Below the pieces are notes generated by a model that was not told the origin of the DNA, searched no databases, and was given only the letters and a program-made list of their open reading frames with translations. The translations under genes were made by a program, and so were the position numbers. Of a stretch of 30,962 nucleotides of DNA, positions 3,053 to 30,962 are shown piece after piece (the stretch's first letter is position 1; each line of letters starts with the position of its first letter). The DNA is from a virus. The stretch is from positions 1-30,962 of the IMG/VR virus record IMGVR_UViG_3300008110_011197; one strand, 5' to 3'.

Positions 3053-4079
3053 TTTGCCAAGCTCTCATCCCAAATTTATTAAATGTAAATTTTTGATGAT
3101 ACCCCATATTCAATTTATCTAATTCTTTAATAACATCGTATTTTGTATTATTTGGGCAATAGAAAAACATAAATCCTCCACCACCTGCACCACTTATCTT
3201 ACCACCGGTTGCACCTGCTTTAATTGCAGTTTCATATAACAATTCTATTTCAGGCGTACTAATTCCTTTTGCTAACATTTTCTTTTGCTGAAATCCATAA
3301 TCTAATATCTCACCTAAATCATCTATATTTCCTTTTATCAAACAATCTTTTATCATCTTCGCTTGCTCTGCCAATGCGTGGAGTGATAGGGTTGATGTTT
3401 TGTTATTATCTTTCATTTTTTCAACTTGCTCTACCAATATATCGGAACTATTTCGTGTGAAATTTGTAAAATAAAGAACTATATTGTTTTCCAATTCATC
3501 CTGAATACTATCTTTTATTCGTAATGGATTAACAATCACATCATCACCTTTGAATTCCATATAATTCCATCCACCAAAAGATGCGGCGTATTGGTCTTGC
3601 TTTCCACCATTTTCCGCCAATTCAACTCTTTCAATTTGAATTGCCATTTCAGCAATATCATATTCTCCCAATGGTAAATTGAATAGTTCAGTATATACAC
3701 CAATAAGAGAAACTATGAGAGTTGATGATGTTCCCAAACCACTACCAGTCGGAACATCTTGCCACGTTACAATATCATAACCAAATGGTTCTAACTTAAA
3801 TCTTTTACATATATGATTGTGAGTTGCTTTAAACAACTTTAATCCATATGAACAATCTAAATTATTACTAAAATCATGCACCTCAAATTCATCCTTATTA
3901 ACCCATTTAAAGGTAACTTTAGTATCATCTCTTAATTGTAAAGATGTATGTGTAAACAATCGGATTGTGGTATTAATTACTGCGCCCGTATGATGTTTGC
4001 AGTAATCCGGCATATCCGTTCCACCTCCACCAAAACTAATCCTGAATGGGACCTTGCTCCTGTATATTTTGTTCTTCAT
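3045..4079 (-). CDS. hddA: D-glycero-D-manno-heptose 7-phosphate kinase-like GHMP kinase
   Basis: A GHMP-family kinase of 344 residues. By family it phosphorylates C1 of a heptose 7-phosphate using ATP, an early step to NDP-heptose. Motif 1 is PFRISFGGGGTD (about 11-22), motif 2 the ATP loop GSGLGTSS (about 112-119), then GGKQDQYAASFGG (about 158-170), which is characteristic of HddA, and the glycine-rich motif 3 GGKISGAGGGG near residue 293. All catalytic motifs are intact. Starts at 4103, 4094 and 4079 are all ATG; I chose 4079 because HddA proteins begin just before PFRIS and it minimises overlap with the upstream gene (44 bases). A cupin and an HldE-C-like enzyme are nearby, but no isomerase (GmhA) is seen. 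Confidence 0.85.
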   Translation of the reverse strand: MKNKIYRSKVPFRISFGGGGTDMPDYCKHHTGAVINTTIRLFTHTSLQLRDDTKVTFKWVNKDEFEVHDFSNNLDCSYGLKLFKATHNHICKRFKLEPFGYDIVTWQDVPTGSGLGTSSTLIVSLIGVYTELFNLPLGEYDIAEMAIQIERVELAENGGKQDQYAASFGGWNYMEFKGDDVIVNPLRIKDSIQDELENNIVLYFTNFTRNSSDILVEQVEKMKDNNKTSTLSLHALAEQAKMIKDCLIKGNIDDLGEILDYGFQQKKMLAKGISTPEIELLYETAIKAGATGGKISGAGGGGFMFFYCPNNTKYDVIKELDKLNMGYHQKFTFNKFGMRAWQIG

Positions 4080-4623
4080 CCGGTATTCCTCCATTTTCTT
4101 CATACCAATTTTTTACATTCCTTTCCCCAACTAATAGGAAAAAACAATTATAACAAAGTGGTCTAATGTTTTCTAATTTTCTGTTATTTAAATTTCCATC
4201 AAGAAAATCTATAAGTAAAGGCATTTTTCCATCGGATATTCTTTCTTCACCAAACCCACAACTTGAACAGACTTTTGGAACATATCCACTATCAAATAAT
4301 TTGTTTTTAAATTTATGTAATGGATATTTAAGATGTTTGCCTGCTATTAAATCATCAATGTGATATTTTTTGTTTTTGATTCTTTTAGCTTTCTCAATAC
4401 CTATTCCGTATGGATTTTTTAAATCTTCAAAAATACCATAAAGTTTTGCATACTTTTTATAGGTGTTATATGAAACACCCAAAGTTCTTGCCGCTTCAAA
4501 TGCGGATTGTGATTTTTCTTGTGCTGCTTTTATTTGTGATTCGAGTAGTGGACGGGCGCCAACGCCTCTCTTTCCGCTTGTTCTCTGTTGTAAATTGGGG
4601 AAAAAACTTTCTTCCGTTTCCAT
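4036..4623 (-). CDS. HNH-like zinc protein with lost catalytic histidines
   Basis: A 195-residue protein. Residues 40-64 (AFEAARTLGVSYNTYKKYAK) look like a helix-turn-helix. The C-terminal part has two CxxC pairs, C119/C122 and C157/C160, flanking LLIDFLDGNLNNRKLENIRPL. This is the layout of an HNH homing-type domain (DHxDGNxxNNxxENLRxLCxxCH), but the first His of the DH pair is Phe140 and the His after the second CxxC is Phe161. The zinc site is kept while the catalytic His is absent, so I infer a DNA-binding or regulatory protein, not a nuclease. The ATG at 4623 follows an AT-rich 34-base gap containing the weak inverted repeat ATACT-AATA-AGTAT (4643-4656). Confidence 0.7.
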   Translation of the reverse strand: METEESFFPNLQQRTSGKRGVGARPLLESQIKAAQEKSQSAFEAARTLGVSYNTYKKYAKLYGIFEDLKNPYGIGIEKAKRIKNKKYHIDDLIAGKHLKYPLHKFKNKLFDSGYVPKVCSSCGFGEERISDGKMPLLIDFLDGNLNNRKLENIRPLCYNCFFLLVGERNVKNWYEENGGIPDEEQNIQEQGPIQD

Positions 4624-23587: not shown

Positions 23588-23826
23588 TACTCAATAATCT
23601 TTTTTTGAAGTTCTTCTGGTAACATTTCATTTAAAGCTTCACCACATTGTGTACATAGAAAAACCTGTATAGGTATAACCATATCATCTGGTGTACCCGT
23701 CAGAAGTCTAGATACTTTTCTAACTCTTACACCTGGCATATATGTATCATTTCCACATTTACATAAAACTTCTCTTGCGTCTGTTAATTTAAAATCCGGT
23801 GGTAACTGATATTGTCCGTTTGTCAT
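23587..23826 (-). CDS. Small zinc-ribbon protein between clamp loader genes
   Basis: A 79-residue protein with CKCGN (about 22-26) and CTQCGE (58-63), forming a four-cysteine zinc ribbon around the core YMPGVRVRKVSRLLTGTPDDMVIPIQVF. Function unknown. It is locked between the two clamp-loader genes (ATGA with 44, TAATG with 62), which suggests co-expression with the replisome. It might be a replication accessory, or a T4-late-like transcription adaptor that contacts the clamp, but no sequence evidence separates these. Confidence 0.75.
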   Translation of the reverse strand: MTNGQYQLPPDFKLTDAREVLCKCGNDTYMPGVRVRKVSRLLTGTPDDMVIPIQVFLCTQCGEALNEMLPEELQKKIIE

Positions 23827-24755
23827 TTTATTATGTTTAAAATTTGAATAATTGTGCTCATAAATACGATTTCTTTATCGACTACTAATGCATCTTTGGA
23901 TAAACCATCTGCAATTGTCATAATCGTATTTGCTACATTTCCGGTTGCATATTCATCTACTTTATCGTATAGGATTGAATACATTTCTGAATAATCGTTT
24001 AGATGGTTATCTGCTACCGCCTGTCTAATTTTCATAAACAAGTTACGTTTGTCATCATTTGATTTTAATAAGTCAATCAATTTTGTTTGGAAATTTGATT
24101 CAACCATTACTTTATGATCTACTTTCAATTCTCCTTTTGCTGATTGTAATTGACAAGTATTAAGTATTCTCCTAATATCAGGATAATAAGAACTAACAAT
24201 ATCAGCTACATTCTTAATGTCATACTTAATCTTTTCCGTATCCAAAATCTTACTAACTTGCACTGCAACATCTTTTTTAGTTGGTGGTGTAATTGCGAAA
24301 GATTGACAACGACTTTGAATCGGGTCAATAATTTTCTCAATGTAATTACAAGTAAGAATAAACCGACAATGTTTACTAAATGTTTCCATTAAGTTACGAA
24401 GTATCGCCTGTGCATTTGGAGTCATATAATCGAACTCGTCTAATATAATAACTTTGAATCCTGCAAAACCTACCGATGATGCGAAGTTCTTAACCTTATT
24501 ACGGACAGTATCAACATTGTTTTCATCCGATGCATTTATAATCATACTATCACATTTTATTGTATTTATGATAAGTTTTGCAAGAGTGGTCTTACCTGTT
24601 CCCGCTTTACCATAAAACAATAAGTGTGGAATATCATTTGTATCCAGATATTGTTGGATTGTTTCTTTTACTTGCTCATTTCCAACATATTCGGCAAGTG
24701 TTTGTGGACGGTATTTCTCCACCCACAAACTATGTTCTTTGTTGTGCTTCTTCAA
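23823..24755 (-). CDS. 44: Clamp loader AAA+ ATPase subunit
   Basis: A 310-residue AAA+ ATPase, the gp44 subunit that opens and closes the clamp. LWVEKYRP (about 10-17) is the family's N-terminal mark. Walker A is GKAGTGKTT (49-57), Walker B VIILDEFDYM (about 102-111), sensor 1 ILTCNYIEKI, and the arginine finger SRC lies in IQSRCQSF. Length matches T4 gp44 (319). The start is unusual: there is no ATG near the N-terminus, and the frame opens at TTG 24755, 26 bases inside the dUTPase gene. A later start would approach the LWVEKYRP motif. Weak initiation may help set its ratio to clamp and polymerase. Confidence 0.93.
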   Translation of the reverse strand: MKKHNKEHSLWVEKYRPQTLAEYVGNEQVKETIQQYLDTNDIPHLLFYGKAGTGKTTLAKLIINTIKCDSMIINASDENNVDTVRNKVKNFASSVGFAGFKVIILDEFDYMTPNAQAILRNLMETFSKHCRFILTCNYIEKIIDPIQSRCQSFAITPPTKKDVAVQVSKILDTEKIKYDIKNVADIVSSYYPDIRRILNTCQLQSAKGELKVDHKVMVESNFQTKLIDLLKSNDDKRNLFMKIRQAVADNHLNDYSEMYSILYDKVDEYATGNVANTIMTIADGLSKDALVVDKEIVFMSTIIQILNIIK

Positions 24756-25406: not shown

Positions 25407-26120
25407 TTAATTTGAAATTTCTACTAAATAATATTTACATACAAAATCATCAATCTGAAATTCAACGTTTGATAATCCATCAACCGATACTTTGAGTTTT
25501 GCATTGGTTGCTTCTTTATTTGCTGTAAGAATTTCTTTTAAATATTTTGATGAGAATGAGATTGGTTTTACATCACCATCAAATCCTTTGATTACTGTGA
25601 ATGTTACTCTGTTTGTTGATATAGAAGAATAACCAATTGCCATCTTCAAATCACCATCCTCCGTAAAGATTGTGAAAGTATCTACATCACTCAATGCACC
25701 CTTTGCTTTGATAAAACGATCTACCATTTGTGATGTCATATCAATTGCAATACCGAAATCAGGCAATGCCTTCAAATCTGGAACAGGTGGAATTACACCC
25801 AAATCCGCCAATTGGTATGAAGTTTCGGTATCATCCGAACTCAATTTCAAACTAACTGCTTTCTCACCGGCTTTATCTACTTTCAATGTTATATCACTAT
25901 CCAATACACCAATCATATTTTTCAATAATGAAGTTGTATAAATACCAACATTAAATGGTGTTGAAGTGAATGCGTTGAATTCTACTTCACCTAATAGAGT
26001 TTTATCATCAGAAATAAATCTAACTGATAATTTTGTTCCTTCTGCGTTCCATGCTACTGATTCAATAAGTCCACCTAGTGAATACTTTTGAATAAATTTT
26101 AATAAACTGTTTTTGTTCAT
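25407..26120 (-). CDS. 45: Sliding clamp
   Basis: A 237-residue gp45-type processivity clamp, by family a homotrimeric ring that tethers the DNA polymerase and in T4 also activates late transcription. LLKFIQKYSLGGLIESVAWN (6-25), a FNVGIYTTSLLKNMIGVL segment, the SSDDTETSYQLADLGVIPPVP stretch and the C-terminal FSSKYLKEILTANKEATNAKLKVS repeat-like half match the two-domain clamp fold. Length is close to T4 gp45 (228). It follows the polymerase gene (48-base gap) and has its own promoter candidate, so clamp can be made in excess of polymerase. Confidence 0.88.
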   Translation of the reverse strand: MNKNSLLKFIQKYSLGGLIESVAWNAEGTKLSVRFISDDKTLLGEVEFNAFTSTPFNVGIYTTSLLKNMIGVLDSDITLKVDKAGEKAVSLKLSSDDTETSYQLADLGVIPPVPDLKALPDFGIAIDMTSQMVDRFIKAKGALSDVDTFTIFTEDGDLKMAIGYSSISTNRVTFTVIKGFDGDVKPISFSSKYLKEILTANKEATNAKLKVSVDGLSNVEFQIDDFVCKYYLVEISN

Positions 26121-26149: not shown

Positions 26150-26179
26150 TAAATATACGAAATTTTTATTAGAAAGCAA
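26150..26179 (-). promoter_or_regulatory. Bacteroidetes-type promoter candidate for the clamp gene
   Basis: On the minus strand TTTG (ending 26177) sits 19 bases before TATATTTA (26157-26150). It spans the end of the polymerase gene and the 48-base gap. The resulting leader would be about 25 bases, A-rich, with the TTAACAAA element also seen before the DUF4494-like gene. Confidence 0.5.
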
Positions 26180-28724
26180 AAAACTTTTTTGCTGTCTTTG
26201 TATCTGCAGTGACTTTATCCCACTTTAGTGCGTTATAAAAATCATCTAATTTGTTTTCCAATTCTGCTGAAAATATCTTATCCCTATCTATATACGTTTC
26301 TACGAAATCCATAATTTCTTTTGGATCGTTATAATCTTTAAATGCCAATGTCTCCAATCCTAATGGATTATTTTTTAAGTATACCCATTTCACTTTATCA
26401 CCATCTCTAATTGGTTCGTGCTTATATGGTGCGTTAAAGAATTTAAGTAATCTATTGTATGCAATTCCGGCTTTAACGTGTGCGGGTGTTCCTTTTTCAA
26501 AGTTTGCGATTGATGATCCAGGTTTCCACTTACCATTATCGTATTTACTTAACTCTTTTATTGCTCCACCTTTTGCAATTAGGTTTACAGGGAGAGTTGG
26601 TAAACTCTTCTTAAACGTTAGAAGTGTATCATCTATATATTCATGATCTTTACCCATCAGAATATCTTTCAACATTGTAGACATAAATTTCTGAAATGCT
26701 TTTGGAAATGAACTTCTTACAACATCTAAACCTTTAACATCCAACTTATCGCAAGGAATTCCATTTTTCAAAATCATCCATTGTGCATATCGTTTCTTTG
26801 CTACCCAAAATCCAGCTTTACTGATATATTCTTTTTTGATTTCAAATCTATGTTTATCTTTTGGAATAAAGAAAAATCTTTCTGCTAATAAGTCGTAGAA
26901 TGAGTTTAAGAATGTTTGTGTTTCGGTTGCAATATTATCCACCTCAACTGCCATCCTCTTTTCATCAAATTCCTTATAGTTTGGATAACGATGTTTGACC
27001 AATGGTTCTGCCATCATATAAATGGAATCTGTATCAATATACACATTGTAGTCATCCTTTGTTCCTAATTCTTTCCAATATTTTCTATTTGCCATTTCCG
27101 CCGTCTTTTTAATTACGACTTGTCCTGTTAGTGTCACTGCTTCTGCGTTATCCACATCATAGAAACGGAATGCCGGTAACCCCAATACACCATACATTGA
27201 GTTTAGTAGAATTTTCTGAACGTGTTGTCTTTTGCCATAAAATTCATATTGTTCGGTATCACCTGCTTCACCATATTTTTTTTCTAACTTACGATACTCA
27301 ACCCTTTTCTGAAACCAAGTGTTAAGAATATCTGCAATTAGACCTGGTTTGTCCTGATTATATAAAACTCCATTTGCAGCAACACCCAAATTACTATCTT
27401 TGATTACATCGGCAAGTTCTTCTTTTGTATATTCGTATGTATCATCCTTACCAACTATTCTATATGTTCCGGTATCATCACCTTTAATCCAAGCTTCTGC
27501 ATCCCAATTATCAATCTTACCAATCTTTGTTTCAGGACTGATATTAAGGGTCATAATGATTGATGGGTATAGGGATGTCAAATCTAAATCATAAATCCAA
27601 TCATACTTACCAACAATGGGTTCTTTTACATATGCACCTATGAATTTCTCTTGGTCGTTATCTTTCAACGCCTGCATCCTCTCTCTTCGGTCTTTTGGCT
27701 TATTCGTTGCAACCAATCCTTTTACCTTCAGATATGATAAACACGCACCCTCCAACCACTTTGATGAATAAATGTAATCTTCGTATGGAACATAACCAGC
27801 GTGACAGATTGCTCTACACAATTCGATAAACTTTAATTTGTTATCCATTGTTACCACCAAGTCCACGTCGACAATGTTATACTCTATGAACTTTTCTAAA
27901 TCCGTTTCAAATAAATCATCCAAACTACCTTCATATTCAACCTTGCCTCTACCCAATTCCTTTGTTGCAATGTGGTTTAGAGTGTAACTACTTTCCAGAC
28001 CAAAATTATATTGTTTGTATAAATTGATATAATCCAAAATAGATACACCACCAAATGACCACTTGTCTCTGTAAGGTGAATAAAAACATTGTCCAATACG
28101 AGATAATCTTTTTGCATGTCCTTCTCCACATACGTTTTTAATACGATTGTAAAGATATGGAATATCGAAAAAATCTATGTTCCAACCTGTGAGAATAGTC
28201 GCGTCAACTTCTTCGTAATAATTAAGAAATGCAAGTAAAAGATTTTTCTCGTTATCGAAAATGTGAACACTCCCCTCTCTACCATCCTTGCTAAATTTGT
28301 CAGCATTTTTTTTAACTTTTTTTTGTTTATCTAATACGAAAACATCAAATAGTTTTGTTGCACTATCATGTGCAGCAATTGATGTAATTTCGTTTTGTGC
28401 TTCTTTTGTATTTGGTAGTCCTGATATCATTTCCACCTCAATATCGAATGTCATTATTCTATGACCTACAGATGGAATATCACTATCGTAAATATCTACT
28501 AATACTCTTGTTGTTTCTGGAACATCACTTTCAAATAGGTCATCACTTTCATCCTTTTCCCACTTTGAAATACGGGTTAGTTTCTCACCATTCATTGAAA
28601 GATGTTGTCCATATGGGTCTTTCTTATATGCATACTTTCGGTATGGCATTGTTTGATACCCACTTTTGTCATCCCAAAGATGCATTAAATTTTTCTGTCT
28701 CTCGTAATAAATGTTTTGATACAT
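26169..28724 (-). CDS. 43: Family B DNA polymerase
   Basis: An 851-residue T4-type replicative polymerase with proofreading. Exonuclease motifs are intact: Exo I FDIEVE (93-98), Exo II WNIDFFD (181-187), Exo III YNIVD (282-286). Polymerase motifs are DLTSLYPSII (381-390, motif A), KILLNSMYG (504-512, motif B) and YIDTDS (562-567, motif C). The C-terminus ends KKFFAF, a hydrophobic tail that fits clamp binding as in T4 gp43. T4 gp43 has 898 residues. The gene starts 8 bases after the DruA-like gene and is followed by the clamp; in T4 the order is 45-44-62-regA-43, so the polymerase has moved to the front. No intron or intein is seen. Confidence 0.97.
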   Translation of the reverse strand: MYQNIYYERQKNLMHLWDDKSGYQTMPYRKYAYKKDPYGQHLSMNGEKLTRISKWEKDESDDLFESDVPETTRVLVDIYDSDIPSVGHRIMTFDIEVEMISGLPNTKEAQNEITSIAAHDSATKLFDVFVLDKQKKVKKNADKFSKDGREGSVHIFDNEKNLLLAFLNYYEEVDATILTGWNIDFFDIPYLYNRIKNVCGEGHAKRLSRIGQCFYSPYRDKWSFGGVSILDYINLYKQYNFGLESSYTLNHIATKELGRGKVEYEGSLDDLFETDLEKFIEYNIVDVDLVVTMDNKLKFIELCRAICHAGYVPYEDYIYSSKWLEGACLSYLKVKGLVATNKPKDRRERMQALKDNDQEKFIGAYVKEPIVGKYDWIYDLDLTSLYPSIIMTLNISPETKIGKIDNWDAEAWIKGDDTGTYRIVGKDDTYEYTKEELADVIKDSNLGVAANGVLYNQDKPGLIADILNTWFQKRVEYRKLEKKYGEAGDTEQYEFYGKRQHVQKILLNSMYGVLGLPAFRFYDVDNAEAVTLTGQVVIKKTAEMANRKYWKELGTKDDYNVYIDTDSIYMMAEPLVKHRYPNYKEFDEKRMAVEVDNIATETQTFLNSFYDLLAERFFFIPKDKHRFEIKKEYISKAGFWVAKKRYAQWMILKNGIPCDKLDVKGLDVVRSSFPKAFQKFMSTMLKDILMGKDHEYIDDTLLTFKKSLPTLPVNLIAKGGAIKELSKYDNGKWKPGSSIANFEKGTPAHVKAGIAYNRLLKFFNAPYKHEPIRDGDKVKWVYLKNNPLGLETLAFKDYNDPKEIMDFVETYIDRDKIFSAELENKLDDFYNALKWDKVTADTKTAKKFFAF

Positions 28725-28732
28725 ATGTTATT

Positions 28733-29962
28733 TTATCTACCCACGTCTGCTAAAAATTTGTCTTTCATTTGTTCCCATGTCATACCGATTGCATCTGCGT
28801 AAAACAGAGTTTCGTTTTTCAATCTACCTTCATCATGTAATTTTGAATATCGTTTGATTGCTTGTTTTTTCCACCAACGAATTGTGTAATTATCACCCTC
28901 TACAAATTTATCTTTCATCACTAATTCGGTATCTGTAACTTTACCACATAGGTATTCGCACCCATTCTCATACATCATTGCAAAGTAAACACCTCTCTTA
29001 AACCCATGATGGTATGTATCTGCTTTAATACCACACTCTTTGAATATTTGAGTTATAATCTTTTGTTTAATACCACTTACAGGACCACTAGCTCCTTCGC
29101 CTGTTCCCATATTGGCACCATTCCGGATTCGTTCATTGGTGATATTATTTGTGTACCACTCTGAACGATTTTCTTTTAACCATTGGTGCCATGGATCGTA
29201 GAACTTATCATCAGGCTTAATGCTGATTTTGCCTTTACTTTCACCCAATGTTTTAAAATGTGGAATGGCGTTGTATTGTGAATGAATACCATATAACGAT
29301 GTAGTTCCAACTGCAATTAAAGTGTTATCATATTTTTGTTTCCAATGCTCTCTAAATGTGGGAGATGTAGTTAATGCTGATACTAATTTACCACCCAAAA
29401 AGTTATAACCCAATGGTTGTGTTGCAATGATGGATGTTCCAATTGCGGTATTGTTTAATTTACCTTTTTGGAATTTATCTTCTTTAGTCCAACCAATGTA
29501 TTCATCTCGTACTCCTAATGATGTAATATCAGAACCTAAACTAATTACACCCAATACTTTTCCACTCACCATATCCTTTACAAACCCCTTTACATTACGA
29601 CCGGGATTTGGTGTAAACTCCATAGAAGAAATCAATTTTCTCATATAAGTCCAACGGGTTGCCTCATCACCATCTTCAACTAATTCTACATAAGGTTGCA
29701 TATTTTGAATTTCGGTAATAGTACCTTCTTTATCAAAAATATCTTTTGGTTTCCAAATCTTATCGTATTGTTGATGTAATGCCGGAAGTTGTTGATAACT
29801 TGTATGCAAATCTTCATTCCACTCTAACCATTTTTTGTAGAGTGTTTGTTCTTGTACTGACATTGAAAAGAGATAATCCAAATTTGCAATTAATGCTTGT
29901 CTTTCTTTATCAAAATCAAAACCTGCTGTTTTTGGCTGTTCGCCTGTTTCCCAAAATTTCAT
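28733..29962 (-). CDS. DUF4338/DruA-like protein
   Basis: A 409-residue protein. The middle resembles DUF4338, the domain of the Druantia defence protein DruA: GKVLGVISLGSD, VRDEYIGWTKEDK, a short NNTAIGTSIIATQPLGYNF stretch, GGKLVSAL, then a region where DruA-like proteins have ETF/TTS (TTSLYGIHSQYNAI) and a later LGESKGK. The N-terminal 100 residues and the last 120, including GFKRGVYFAMM and RWWKKQAIKRY, are unassigned. Match is by pattern memory, so tentative. Its role in a phage is unknown; modification of phage DNA or counter-defence are possible. It has a private promoter candidate with a leaderless layout and lies just upstream of polymerase. Confidence 0.6.
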   Translation of the reverse strand: MKFWETGEQPKTAGFDFDKERQALIANLDYLFSMSVQEQTLYKKWLEWNEDLHTSYQQLPALHQQYDKIWKPKDIFDKEGTITEIQNMQPYVELVEDGDEATRWTYMRKLISSMEFTPNPGRNVKGFVKDMVSGKVLGVISLGSDITSLGVRDEYIGWTKEDKFQKGKLNNTAIGTSIIATQPLGYNFLGGKLVSALTTSPTFREHWKQKYDNTLIAVGTTSLYGIHSQYNAIPHFKTLGESKGKISIKPDDKFYDPWHQWLKENRSEWYTNNITNERIRNGANMGTGEGASGPVSGIKQKIITQIFKECGIKADTYHHGFKRGVYFAMMYENGCEYLCGKVTDTELVMKDKFVEGDNYTIRWWKKQAIKRYSKLHDEGRLKNETLFYADAIGMTWEQMKDKFLADVGR

Positions 29963-29966
29963 ATAT

Positions 29967-29997
29967 GTAATATACTTAAATTATTTTGTAATACCAA
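29967..29997 (-). promoter_or_regulatory. Promoter candidate, leaderless arrangement
   Basis: On the minus strand TTG (29997-29995) lies 20 bases before TATATTAC (29974-29967), 4 bases ahead of the ATG at 29962. The 26-base block 29960-29985 repeats the block before the PD-(D/E)XK nuclease gene (23101-23126) almost exactly. The -33 element lies inside the end of the GIY-YIG gene. Confidence 0.5.
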
Positions 29998-30649
29998 TTT
30001 TTTCATTTTTCCTTCTTTTTTTCTGGGCCTCTTTTAATTTTTCCCTATGTTCCAACGATAATTTTTTCCCAATTTTAGCTATACTAATTTTTTGTTTTGT
30101 TTCATTTGACATTTTTTTTCCAAACATTGGATTTTTACTTCCTACGTGCAATCCAATATGTGCAAGACTCATTTTTTTTCTTTGTTCAGTTGTTCTATTT
30201 TTTCCTATTTTTGATTCTCTTATTTTTTGTTTTGTTTCTTCTGAATGTGGTTTATGTTTTTTTCCTATTTTTGATTCTCTTATTTTTTGTTTTGTTTCTT
30301 CGGAAAGTTTTCTTCCCAAATTGAGTTCCCTCATTTTTTGCCTTGTTGATTCTGAACGTATTATACCCAGCTGTCCTTCCCCGCCATCTGTTAAATTTAT
30401 CAGATTACCTTCTTTCAGGTCTTTTCTACCGTAAAATTTAATCCAAAATTTTTCTCTTTCACATGCATCTTCCCATGTTAAATTATCTTCAATTATTTCA
30501 ACTTTATATTGAGTTTTATTTGTTATATTATGCCAATACTTTGTTCTTTGAGTATTTTTATTTGCTCTTTGATATTTATTATCATTGCCAATTCCTATAT
30601 AAAAAAAATGGTTTTTATCTAATCTTTTATGTCCATAAACATATGCCAT
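29981..30649 (-). CDS. GIY-YIG homing endonuclease with NUMOD3 repeats
   Basis: A 222-residue homing endonuclease of the T4 Seg type. The GIY-YIG domain is at about 2-90: VYGHKRLDKNHFFYIGIG (the Y...YIG pair), an Arg-rich helix (RANKNTQRTKYW) and the probable catalytic Glu in DACEREKFW. Residues 97-210 carry four to five NUMOD3-type DNA-binding repeats around SEETKQKIRESKIGK. Two adjacent repeats are encoded by a perfect 44-base direct repeat. Free-standing homing genes like this sit between core T4-like genes and spread by cutting phages that lack them. It starts one base after the open tail of the upstream gene, which may have been disturbed by its arrival. Confidence 0.9.
   Translation of the reverse strand: MAYVYGHKRLDKNHFFYIGIGNDNKYQRANKNTQRTKYWHNITNKTQYKVEIIEDNLTWEDACEREKFWIKFYGRKDLKEGNLINLTDGGEGQLGIIRSESTRQKMRELNLGRKLSEETKQKIRESKIGKKHKPHSEETKQKIRESKIGKNRTTEQRKKMSLAHIGLHVGSKNPMFGKKMSNETKQKISIAKIGKKLSLEHREKLKEAQKKRRKNEKIGITK
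30198..30301 (-). repeat. Perfect 44-base direct repeat in NUMOD3 region
   Basis: Positions 30198-30241 and 30258-30301 are identical over 44 bases, with a 60-base period that keeps the reading frame. They encode two copies of EETKQKIRESKIGK. Perfect DNA identity suggests recent duplication or slippage. Confidence 0.85.
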
Positions 30650-30650
30650 A

Positions 30651-30767
30651 TTACCAAAATTTACTTGCTAATTCACTCTCTGGCGCAATTGTAGTATGGT
30701 TTTCTATACCTTTGTTAAATTCTCTAGCATTCTTTGGATAAGGTCTTATTTCATGCTTTAAGGATTT
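30651..30767 (-). other. Open reading tail after an in-frame TGA
   Basis: The 38 codons after the TGA at 30768-30770 stay open in the same frame (KSLKHEIRPYPK ... ASKFW) and end with TAA at 30651, one base before the homing-endonuclease ATG. This looks like the original C-terminus of the edge gene, now separated by the TGA. The SLKHEIRPYPK segment reads like real protein sequence. Confidence 0.55.
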
Positions 30768-30962
30768 TCATATTCCTTTCTTTTCTTTTTTATCACCAAC
30801 TATGACTTGTATGTATCTATGCTTTGGTGGTTCTTCCCTTCTCCAAATTTCTTTGTAACCTTGCTTTCCGATTTCTCTACGAAGATGTTCCAAATTGCCA
30901 CTGCCCCACATTGAATAGACGGTTCTACTATGAATCCAATCGTAAGGGTCTTTTGTTAGAGA
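30768..30962 (-). CDS. C-terminal part of an unidentified gene, cut by the window edge and closed by TGA
   Basis: Sixty-four codons, start outside the window. The translated end reads DPYDWIHSRTVYSMWG, NLEHLRREIGKQGY, IWRREEPPKHRYIQVIVG and KKEKKGI before TGA. The HRYIQVI...KKEKK...LKHEIRPYPK pattern, continuing after the TGA, recalls the C-termini of some phage base-modification or GNAT-like proteins (Mom-like), but this is only a weak impression. The extra tail is described separately. If TGA is a true stop, the protein loses its last 38 residues. Confidence 0.6.
   Translation of the reverse strand, partial: SLTKDPYDWIHSRTVYSMWGSGNLEHLRREIGKQGYKEIWRREEPPKHRYIQVIVGDKKEKKGI

Follow-up and report, generated by a model that had tools for sequence, protein, structure and literature searches.

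The described systems closest to the locus analyzed here are Druantia, an anti-phage defence system of bacteria whose DruA protein contains the domain PF14236 (DUF4338) and is encoded in an operon with a helicase gene, and the Mom protein of phage Mu (PF25680), an enzyme that modifies adenine in DNA. DruA-like proteins in cyanophages and the assignment of DUF4338 to the GNATs are both already in print, as far as the available text of the two papers goes: six Synechococcus phages encode proteins structurally like DruA, which belong to phrog_19197 (Phold paper, PMC12774648), and DUF4338 is called a GNAT domain in passing (PMC10853773). We found nothing in the available text of the Phold paper on a link to Mom, on the gene context or on the function of the phrog_19197 proteins. 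For Mom, the available part of a review on jumbo phages describes a Mom-family protein and another GNAT for acyl modification of DNA (PMC7824862). New in the present analysis are the Mom-like predicted fold of a phage DruA-like protein, a profile bridge between DruA and Mom, the gene order Mom-Mom-DruA-gp43 and the replacement of this block by methyltransferase-like genes. In the open-licence literature searched, to the extent that its text was available, we found no statement on the link between DruA and Mom, on the Mom-Mom-DruA-gp43 block or on its replacement, and likewise no report of an activity of DruA.

The window, i.e. the whole stretch of 30,962 nucleotides that was analyzed, corresponds to the IMG/VR virus record IMGVR_UViG_3300008110_011197. 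The features relevant for the DruA-like gene are compiled in Table 1. The window labels gp45, gp44, gp62, dUTPase and RecB-like were assigned partly by eye, the label gp43 being excepted.

Table 1. Location of the DruA-like gene, its conserved segments and its neighbours in the window.
Feature	Position	Strand	Basis or remark
Clamp loader (gp44-like)	23823..24755	-	weak matches, several PADLOC models; place in relatives; by eye
Sliding clamp (gp45-like)	25407..26120	-	PCNA_C E 0.023, under cut-off; beside gp43 in relatives; partly by eye
Family B DNA polymerase (gp43)	26169..28724	-	PF00136 E 9e-35; 8 nt downstream of the DruA-like gene
DruA-like protein (PF14236), 409 aa	28733..29962	-	ATG start; profile matches
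PF14236 domain (residues 76-339), modelled with a GNAT-like fold	28946..29737	-	Pfam match and AlphaFold2 model
Codons 220-230, TTSLYGIHSQY; second conserved motif	29273..29305	-	partly common to Druantia DruA; Y230 in 16/16 rows
Codons 182-192, QPLGYNFLGGK; loop after strand beta-4	29387..29419	-	putative GNAT cofactor-loop place, from position and motif
GIY-YIG/NUMOD3 ORF, homing-endonuclease type	29981..30649	-	NUMOD3 E 8e-16; GIY-YIG E 0.01, under its cut-off
Mom family gene, 3' part, cut by the window end	30654..30962	-	89% identity with the Mom protein of L002 (its residues 165-267)

The original prediction had described a gene with similarity to DruA beside the DNA polymerase gene of a phage, and both parts of this description were confirmed. 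The gene is a real open reading frame, and its product matches PF14236 with an E-value of 6.8e-19 and 68.6 bits at a cut-off of 27, so that the Pfam test named for the assignment was passed; no better Pfam family was found. The polymerase gene gp43 adjoins it downstream on the same strand. Further matches of the protein were obtained with the PADLOC model of DruA (E 2.3e-19) and with the function-unassigned family phrog_19197 (E 1.8e-30). An alignment of the window protein with 33 relatives revealed that Q182, P183, G185, N187, G190, G191, K192 and L193 as well as T220, T221, L223, S228, Y230 and W364 are invariant in all 34 rows. Most of the core segments quoted in the original prediction are conserved across these sequences. 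The gene is under purifying selection, with dN/dS values of 0.07-0.18 in eight comparisons with relatives in which synonymous sites are near saturation.

The similarity to Druantia DruA is also visible in single residues. In an alignment of 16 DruAs from phages, bacteria and archaea, every row has G138, R152, P183, G190, G191, K192 and Y230; two of these DruAs are followed by a helicase gene within their operon. In contrast, the surroundings differ. In a Druantia locus druA is accompanied by further Dru genes, among them the one for the DruE helicase, whereas the neighbours in the window are Mom, the GIY-YIG/NUMOD3 ORF and gp43, and none of the models for DruB to DruE matched among the 10 window ORFs scanned. 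The phage gene thus stands beside replication genes and Mom instead of a helicase gene.

The upstream neighbours, namely the GIY-YIG/NUMOD3 ORF and the 3' part of the Mom gene, were missing from the original prediction. The GIY-YIG/NUMOD3 ORF lies between the Mom piece and the DruA-like gene and ends 18 nt upstream of the latter. This short distance, and a search of positions 28600-30962 that found 7 sigma-70-like sites, fewer than the mean of 11.3 in shuffled sequences, lend no support to the promoter of its own that had been assumed for the DruA-like gene. The Mom label of the window piece is based on its identity to the Mom protein of the related locus L002, which matches PF25680. The 103 codons of the piece contain one in-frame TGA ahead of the conserved RPYPK tail, at a place where no stop interrupts the Mom ORFs in L002, L019 and L067; this stop codon may reflect a truncated Mom in this phage, a sequence error or drift. 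A GIY-YIG/NUMOD3 ORF separates Mom from DruA in the window as well as in L009 and L010; in L033 such an ORF was observed between DruA and gp43. Homing-type elements seem to visit the Mom-DruA cassette. Elsewhere in the window, the ORF at 4036-4623 matched a PADLOC homing endonuclease model (2.1e-10), and several ORFs on the minus strand at about 7-22 kb resemble glycosyltransferases and nucleotide-sugar enzymes by eye.

An AlphaFold2 model of the DruA-like protein, calculated with 34 sequences (pLDDT 87.5, pTM 0.84), predicts a GNAT-like fold. We read the part of the model between E90-94 and E318-329 as a series of elements in GNAT order, to which inserts and additional helical termini are added. 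Foldseek returned no solved structure at E <= 0.001, and its top rows were mostly GNAT-type enzymes. Using VIA-align, which re-ranks Foldseek's own top 1000, the best solved match was Mom of phage Mu (8bv8; Z 10.9, 186 of 222 residues, rmsd 4.6), followed by SpeG and mainly other GNATs with Z values from 9.8 down to about 9. A Z of 10.9 versus 9.8 is a small lead, and the predicted fold alone is no proof of function. A family sequence search of solved structures gave no match. Among predicted viral structures, proteins from Faunusvirus, Yasminevirus and Dasosvirus matched the model at E 2e-19 to 5e-9, and one Mom matched it at 9e-3. Two of the matches from the three former viruses sit in proteins of more than 1100 amino acids.

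The cofactor loop of classical GNATs, which bind an acyl-CoA or a similar donor, has the motif QxxGxG/A. The DruA-like protein shares with GNAT acetyltransferases the order of the predicted fold and the loop after strand beta-4, but differs from them in the motif QxxGxN, in large inserts and in a profile match that is weak at best (27.8%). The motif QxxGxN is found in the phage branch and is not kept in Druantia-type DruAs.

Direct profile comparison using hhalign yielded no match between phage DruA and Mom (0.3%), and the values with the Moms of the window's own group were 0.6-0.7%. The combined alignment of phage and bacterial/archaeal DruAs reached 0.1% with Mom, and 1.4% and 7.2% in comparisons that included the group's own Moms; in the Pfam scan PF25680 was not listed for the DruA-like protein at E <= 1. 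A connection was obtained with a third set, the transposase-associated DruAs, which are fused to or located beside transposases (in L224, PF14236 is combined with a DDE transposase domain). The profile of this set matched the Mom profile with 95.8% (E 7.7e-9, 171 columns), the phage DruA profile with 96.7% (E 3.4e-10) and the joint alignment of phage and bacterial/archaeal DruAs with 97.5%. As controls, the ordinary GNATs PF00583 and PF13302 gave 1.8% and 0.2%, and the highest value from 30 shufflings of the Mom columns was 0.8%. With a Mom profile extended by the Moms of the group, the transposase-associated set reached 96.6%, and with the six group Moms alone 32.4%. Counting against the Mom reading, phage DruA matched the GNAT set PF13302 with 27.8% (E 6e-4), which is better than its match with Mom.

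The same three sets can be compared at the level of motifs. Mom-like H-Y, F-[VI]-[DE] and N-x-x-S motifs occur in most rows of the transposase-associated branch, whereas GGK and TTS...Y take their place in the branch formed by the phage and Druantia proteins. The invariant residues H58-Y59 and D149 and the conserved S/T124 of Mom, located via the profile alignment, are absent from this branch. The model of the DruA-like protein also differs from Mu Mom, in our reading, by inserts and by additional helical segments at the N- and C-terminus. As the direct profile comparison failed, the link between DruA and Mom is drawn from the transposase-associated DruAs and the structure. We conclude that DruA and Mom share a common descent within the GNATs and that the site was re-tooled; the same chemistry cannot be claimed. 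A search of viral contigs with Mu Mom as query retrieved close copies only. In the GenBank record S-SCSM2R, the label 'methylcarbamoylase mom' is given to the DruA-like gene, although PF25680 has no match there.

True Mom genes are located in the vicinity of the DruA-like gene. Mom-like proteins were recognized among the ORFs upstream of DruA in relatives of the window, where the gene order is Mom-Mom-DruA-gp43. All four candidates scanned match PF25680 with E-values of 4e-41 to 2e-44, and 11 of the 12 invariant columns of Mom are kept in all six group Moms, A148 being replaced by Ser in three of them. A Mom match, often in two tandem copies, was present in 35 of the 154 DruA-selected loci and the window, many of the 154 reaching too little upstream DNA to show Mom. 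The ORFs directly upstream of DruA in L006, L017 and L028 had no Pfam match; the gene next to DruA is thus not in every case a Mom. Analysis of longer records with DruA revealed Mom in 12 out of 22: 11 of the 12 IMG/VR records carry it (ten with two copies, one with one copy), and so does one of the 10 isolate phages (S-SSM7). Where DruA follows gp45, two Moms were present in all eight longer IMG/VR records. Mom is, however, not an obligate partner of DruA, since nine of the isolates had no Mom match and an IMG/VR record of 101 kb (G298) contains DruA without Mom. A Mom beside gp43 in the kyanovirus Melnitz-3, which is not among the DruA matches, was also considered and rejected as a further case; this Mom lies among small function-unassigned genes and a hydroxylase, with tail genes some kb off.

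The association was also analyzed from the side of the polymerase with 80 loci that were selected by gp43 of the window. Because these loci are related and some share contigs with the DruA-selected loci, the following counts are non-independent trials. In 35 of the loci the DNA upstream of gp43 reaches 4.5 kb or more; 31 of these contain DruA and Mom, four contain neither and none contains one alone. The complete set of 80 comprises 45 loci with both, 11 with DruA alone and 9 with none of the genes sought, each of the latter two groups having less than 4.5 kb upstream of gp43, and 15 with methyltransferase-like genes. Eight further whole records contained both families (three, including one of 198 kb) or neither of them (five, including records of 209 and 202 kb).

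The four of the 35 loci without DruA and Mom carry DNA-methyltransferase-like genes instead, and in all 15 of the 80 loci with such genes both DruA and Mom are absent. Conversely, no methyltransferase-like gene was found in the 154 DruA-selected loci within the DNA covered. Two ORFs with S-P-P-Y motifs were found in L374, in the region of gp45 that adjoins gp43. The first matches PF01555 (N6_N4_Mtase) with an E-value of 4.7e-6, barely above the cut-off, and its relatives are annotated as N-4 cytosine-specific DNA methylase or DNA methyltransferase in some phage records; the second (5.8e-4) stays under the cut-off. On the gp43 tree the swap needs one or two changes, so the replacement is suggestive but counts as a single case rather than a recurrent one. 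Two of the 80 gp43-selected loci also have, adjacent to the methyltransferase-like genes, an ORF of 756 amino acids without Pfam match (L374, 2130-4400).

On the basis of these results we propose, with a probability slightly above one half, that the DruA-like protein is a GNAT-fold enzyme of the DruA family, from a branch related to the Mom DNA-modification enzymes, which helps to add a bulky group to the bases of newly replicated phage DNA and in this way counteracts restriction. In the phage group of the window, the gene closes a Mom-Mom-DruA block just upstream of gp43, or it is located two genes further, again with the Moms upstream of it. The enzyme would work with Mom in the group of the window and apparently without Mom in most kyanovirus isolates, and the marked phage DNA would escape recognition by host restriction and other DNA-targeting defences. 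The analysis itself shows the membership in the DruA family, the predicted fold, the profile link to Mom via the transposase-associated DruAs, the association with Mom in this phage group and the methyltransferase-like genes that replace the block in close relatives; we infer the action on DNA, the catalysis with a CoA-type donor and the anti-restriction purpose. The account is plausible because GNATs for acyl modification of DNA are described in jumbo phages, in the available part of the review (PMC7824862).

The joint presence or absence of DruA-like and Mom genes in the group of the window would also be compatible with a division of labour, in which the Moms alone modify the DNA and the DruA-like protein serves as the attack or sensing arm of a self/non-self system carried by the phage, helping to act on DNA of the host or of competing phages that is without the Mom mark, as perhaps in Druantia. 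The bacterial DruAs in operons with a helicase gene, annotated as Druantia, and the Mom domains fused to nucleases in jumbo phages (PMC7824862, available text) fit such an arm. Nevertheless, we consider it unlikely, as no model of a Dru partner matched among the 10 window ORFs scanned, nine of the 10 DruA-bearing isolates have no Mom match and the predicted fold is GNAT-like and not nuclease-like. The GNAT-like fold with its cofactor-like loop and the profile match with PF13302 could instead point to a protein acyltransferase, whose target would be a protein of the host or the phage, for example RNA polymerase or a replisome component; a phage GNAT, Rac, acts on RNA polymerase according to the available text of two papers (PMC7552054; PMC7824862). 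Such a function is improbable, because the best solved match is a DNA-modifying enzyme and the gene is coupled to Mom, both genes being missing where methyltransferase-like genes stand.

Relatives of the DruA-like protein were detected in 31 of 50,697 phage records, consisting of 26 Synechococcus and other cyanophages, three Pelagibacter phages and two marine single-cell virus records; S-PRM1 is one of the phages. In IMG/VR, 85 relatives found by close patterns were confirmed and 80 of them kept. The position of the gene was determined in 141 IMG/VR loci. In 28 of them DruA immediately precedes gp43, and in 85 it immediately follows gp45. The remaining 28 comprise eight loci upstream of gp43 with an insert, one with a GIY-YIG ORF between, three on the gp45 side with inserts, 11 that are cut on the left and continue with the same genes as the gp45 class, and five without a recognized neighbour. 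DruA lies between gp44 and gp62 in seven of the eight cyanophages viewed, sometimes with small genes between, and near gp46/47 in the eighth (S-B68) as well as in both pelagiphages viewed. DruA thus turns up repeatedly within clusters for replication or recombination, at varying positions. In Synechococcus phage S-T4 (L088, 4365-4763) an annotated methyltransferase gene directly precedes the DruA-like gene. A position in such clusters in several phage lineages, together with the missing invariant residues of Mom, could mean that catalysis was lost and that the protein is a DNA-binding or polymerase accessory factor. This seems quite improbable to us, since its own motifs are invariant across distant relatives, as expected of an active or ligand-binding site.

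Phylogenetic analysis of 43 proteins, with the tree rooted at midpoint, separated 26 phage-type rows as one group (support 99/98) from nine Druantia-type bacterial/archaeal DruAs (97/89) and eight transposase-associated DruAs (100/99). The phrog_19197 proteins of Synechococcus phages belong to the same viral clade as the window protein. Because it stands apart from the bacterial DruAs sampled, the phage-type DruA looks like an old viral lineage and not like a recent capture from Druantia. Nine of the 26 phage-type rows come from MAG contigs. In two bacterial MAG contigs (L151 and L154) integrase- or resolvase-like genes are close to the phage-type DruA by eye, and these DruA genes are perhaps located on integrated elements. 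The phage-type DruA domains of L152 (6906-9104) and L155 (1341-3029) have long N-terminal extensions without a Pfam match. In bacteria, DruA was found in three of 96 and 13 of 200 genomes, each count including the centre genome, in a sample that was not aimed at phage hosts. The homology to DruA could suggest that the protein acts as a decoy against host Druantia or excludes superinfecting phages. Either role is highly improbable in view of the separate viral clade, the low frequency of DruA in this bacterial sample, the intact conserved motifs and the coupling with Mom. The inhibitor or superinfection-exclusion role put forward in the original prediction thus has no support of its own, and DNA modification is the best supported of the three roles proposed there, owing to the Mom-like predicted fold and the nearby Mom genes.

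Beyond the preferred reading of the phage protein as a Mom-related enzyme of DNA modification, it is possible, and we hold this only tentatively, that the DruAs of Druantia, transposons and phages form a second Mom-type branch of base-acylating enzymes, which in phages would constitute, together with Mom, a replication-linked module for DNA hypermodification, and that the DruA of Druantia likewise writes or reads a bulky mark on DNA bases. If DruA is a Mom-type branch, its role in Druantia would become testable by nucleoside analysis, and a first clue to the activity of DruA would be available. The finding would also add a DNA-modification module that is frequent in uncultured phages, at least 584 DruA-like relatives having been confirmed among the 600 IMG/VR stretches listed, and it would suggest that related enzymes are used by defence and counter-defence.
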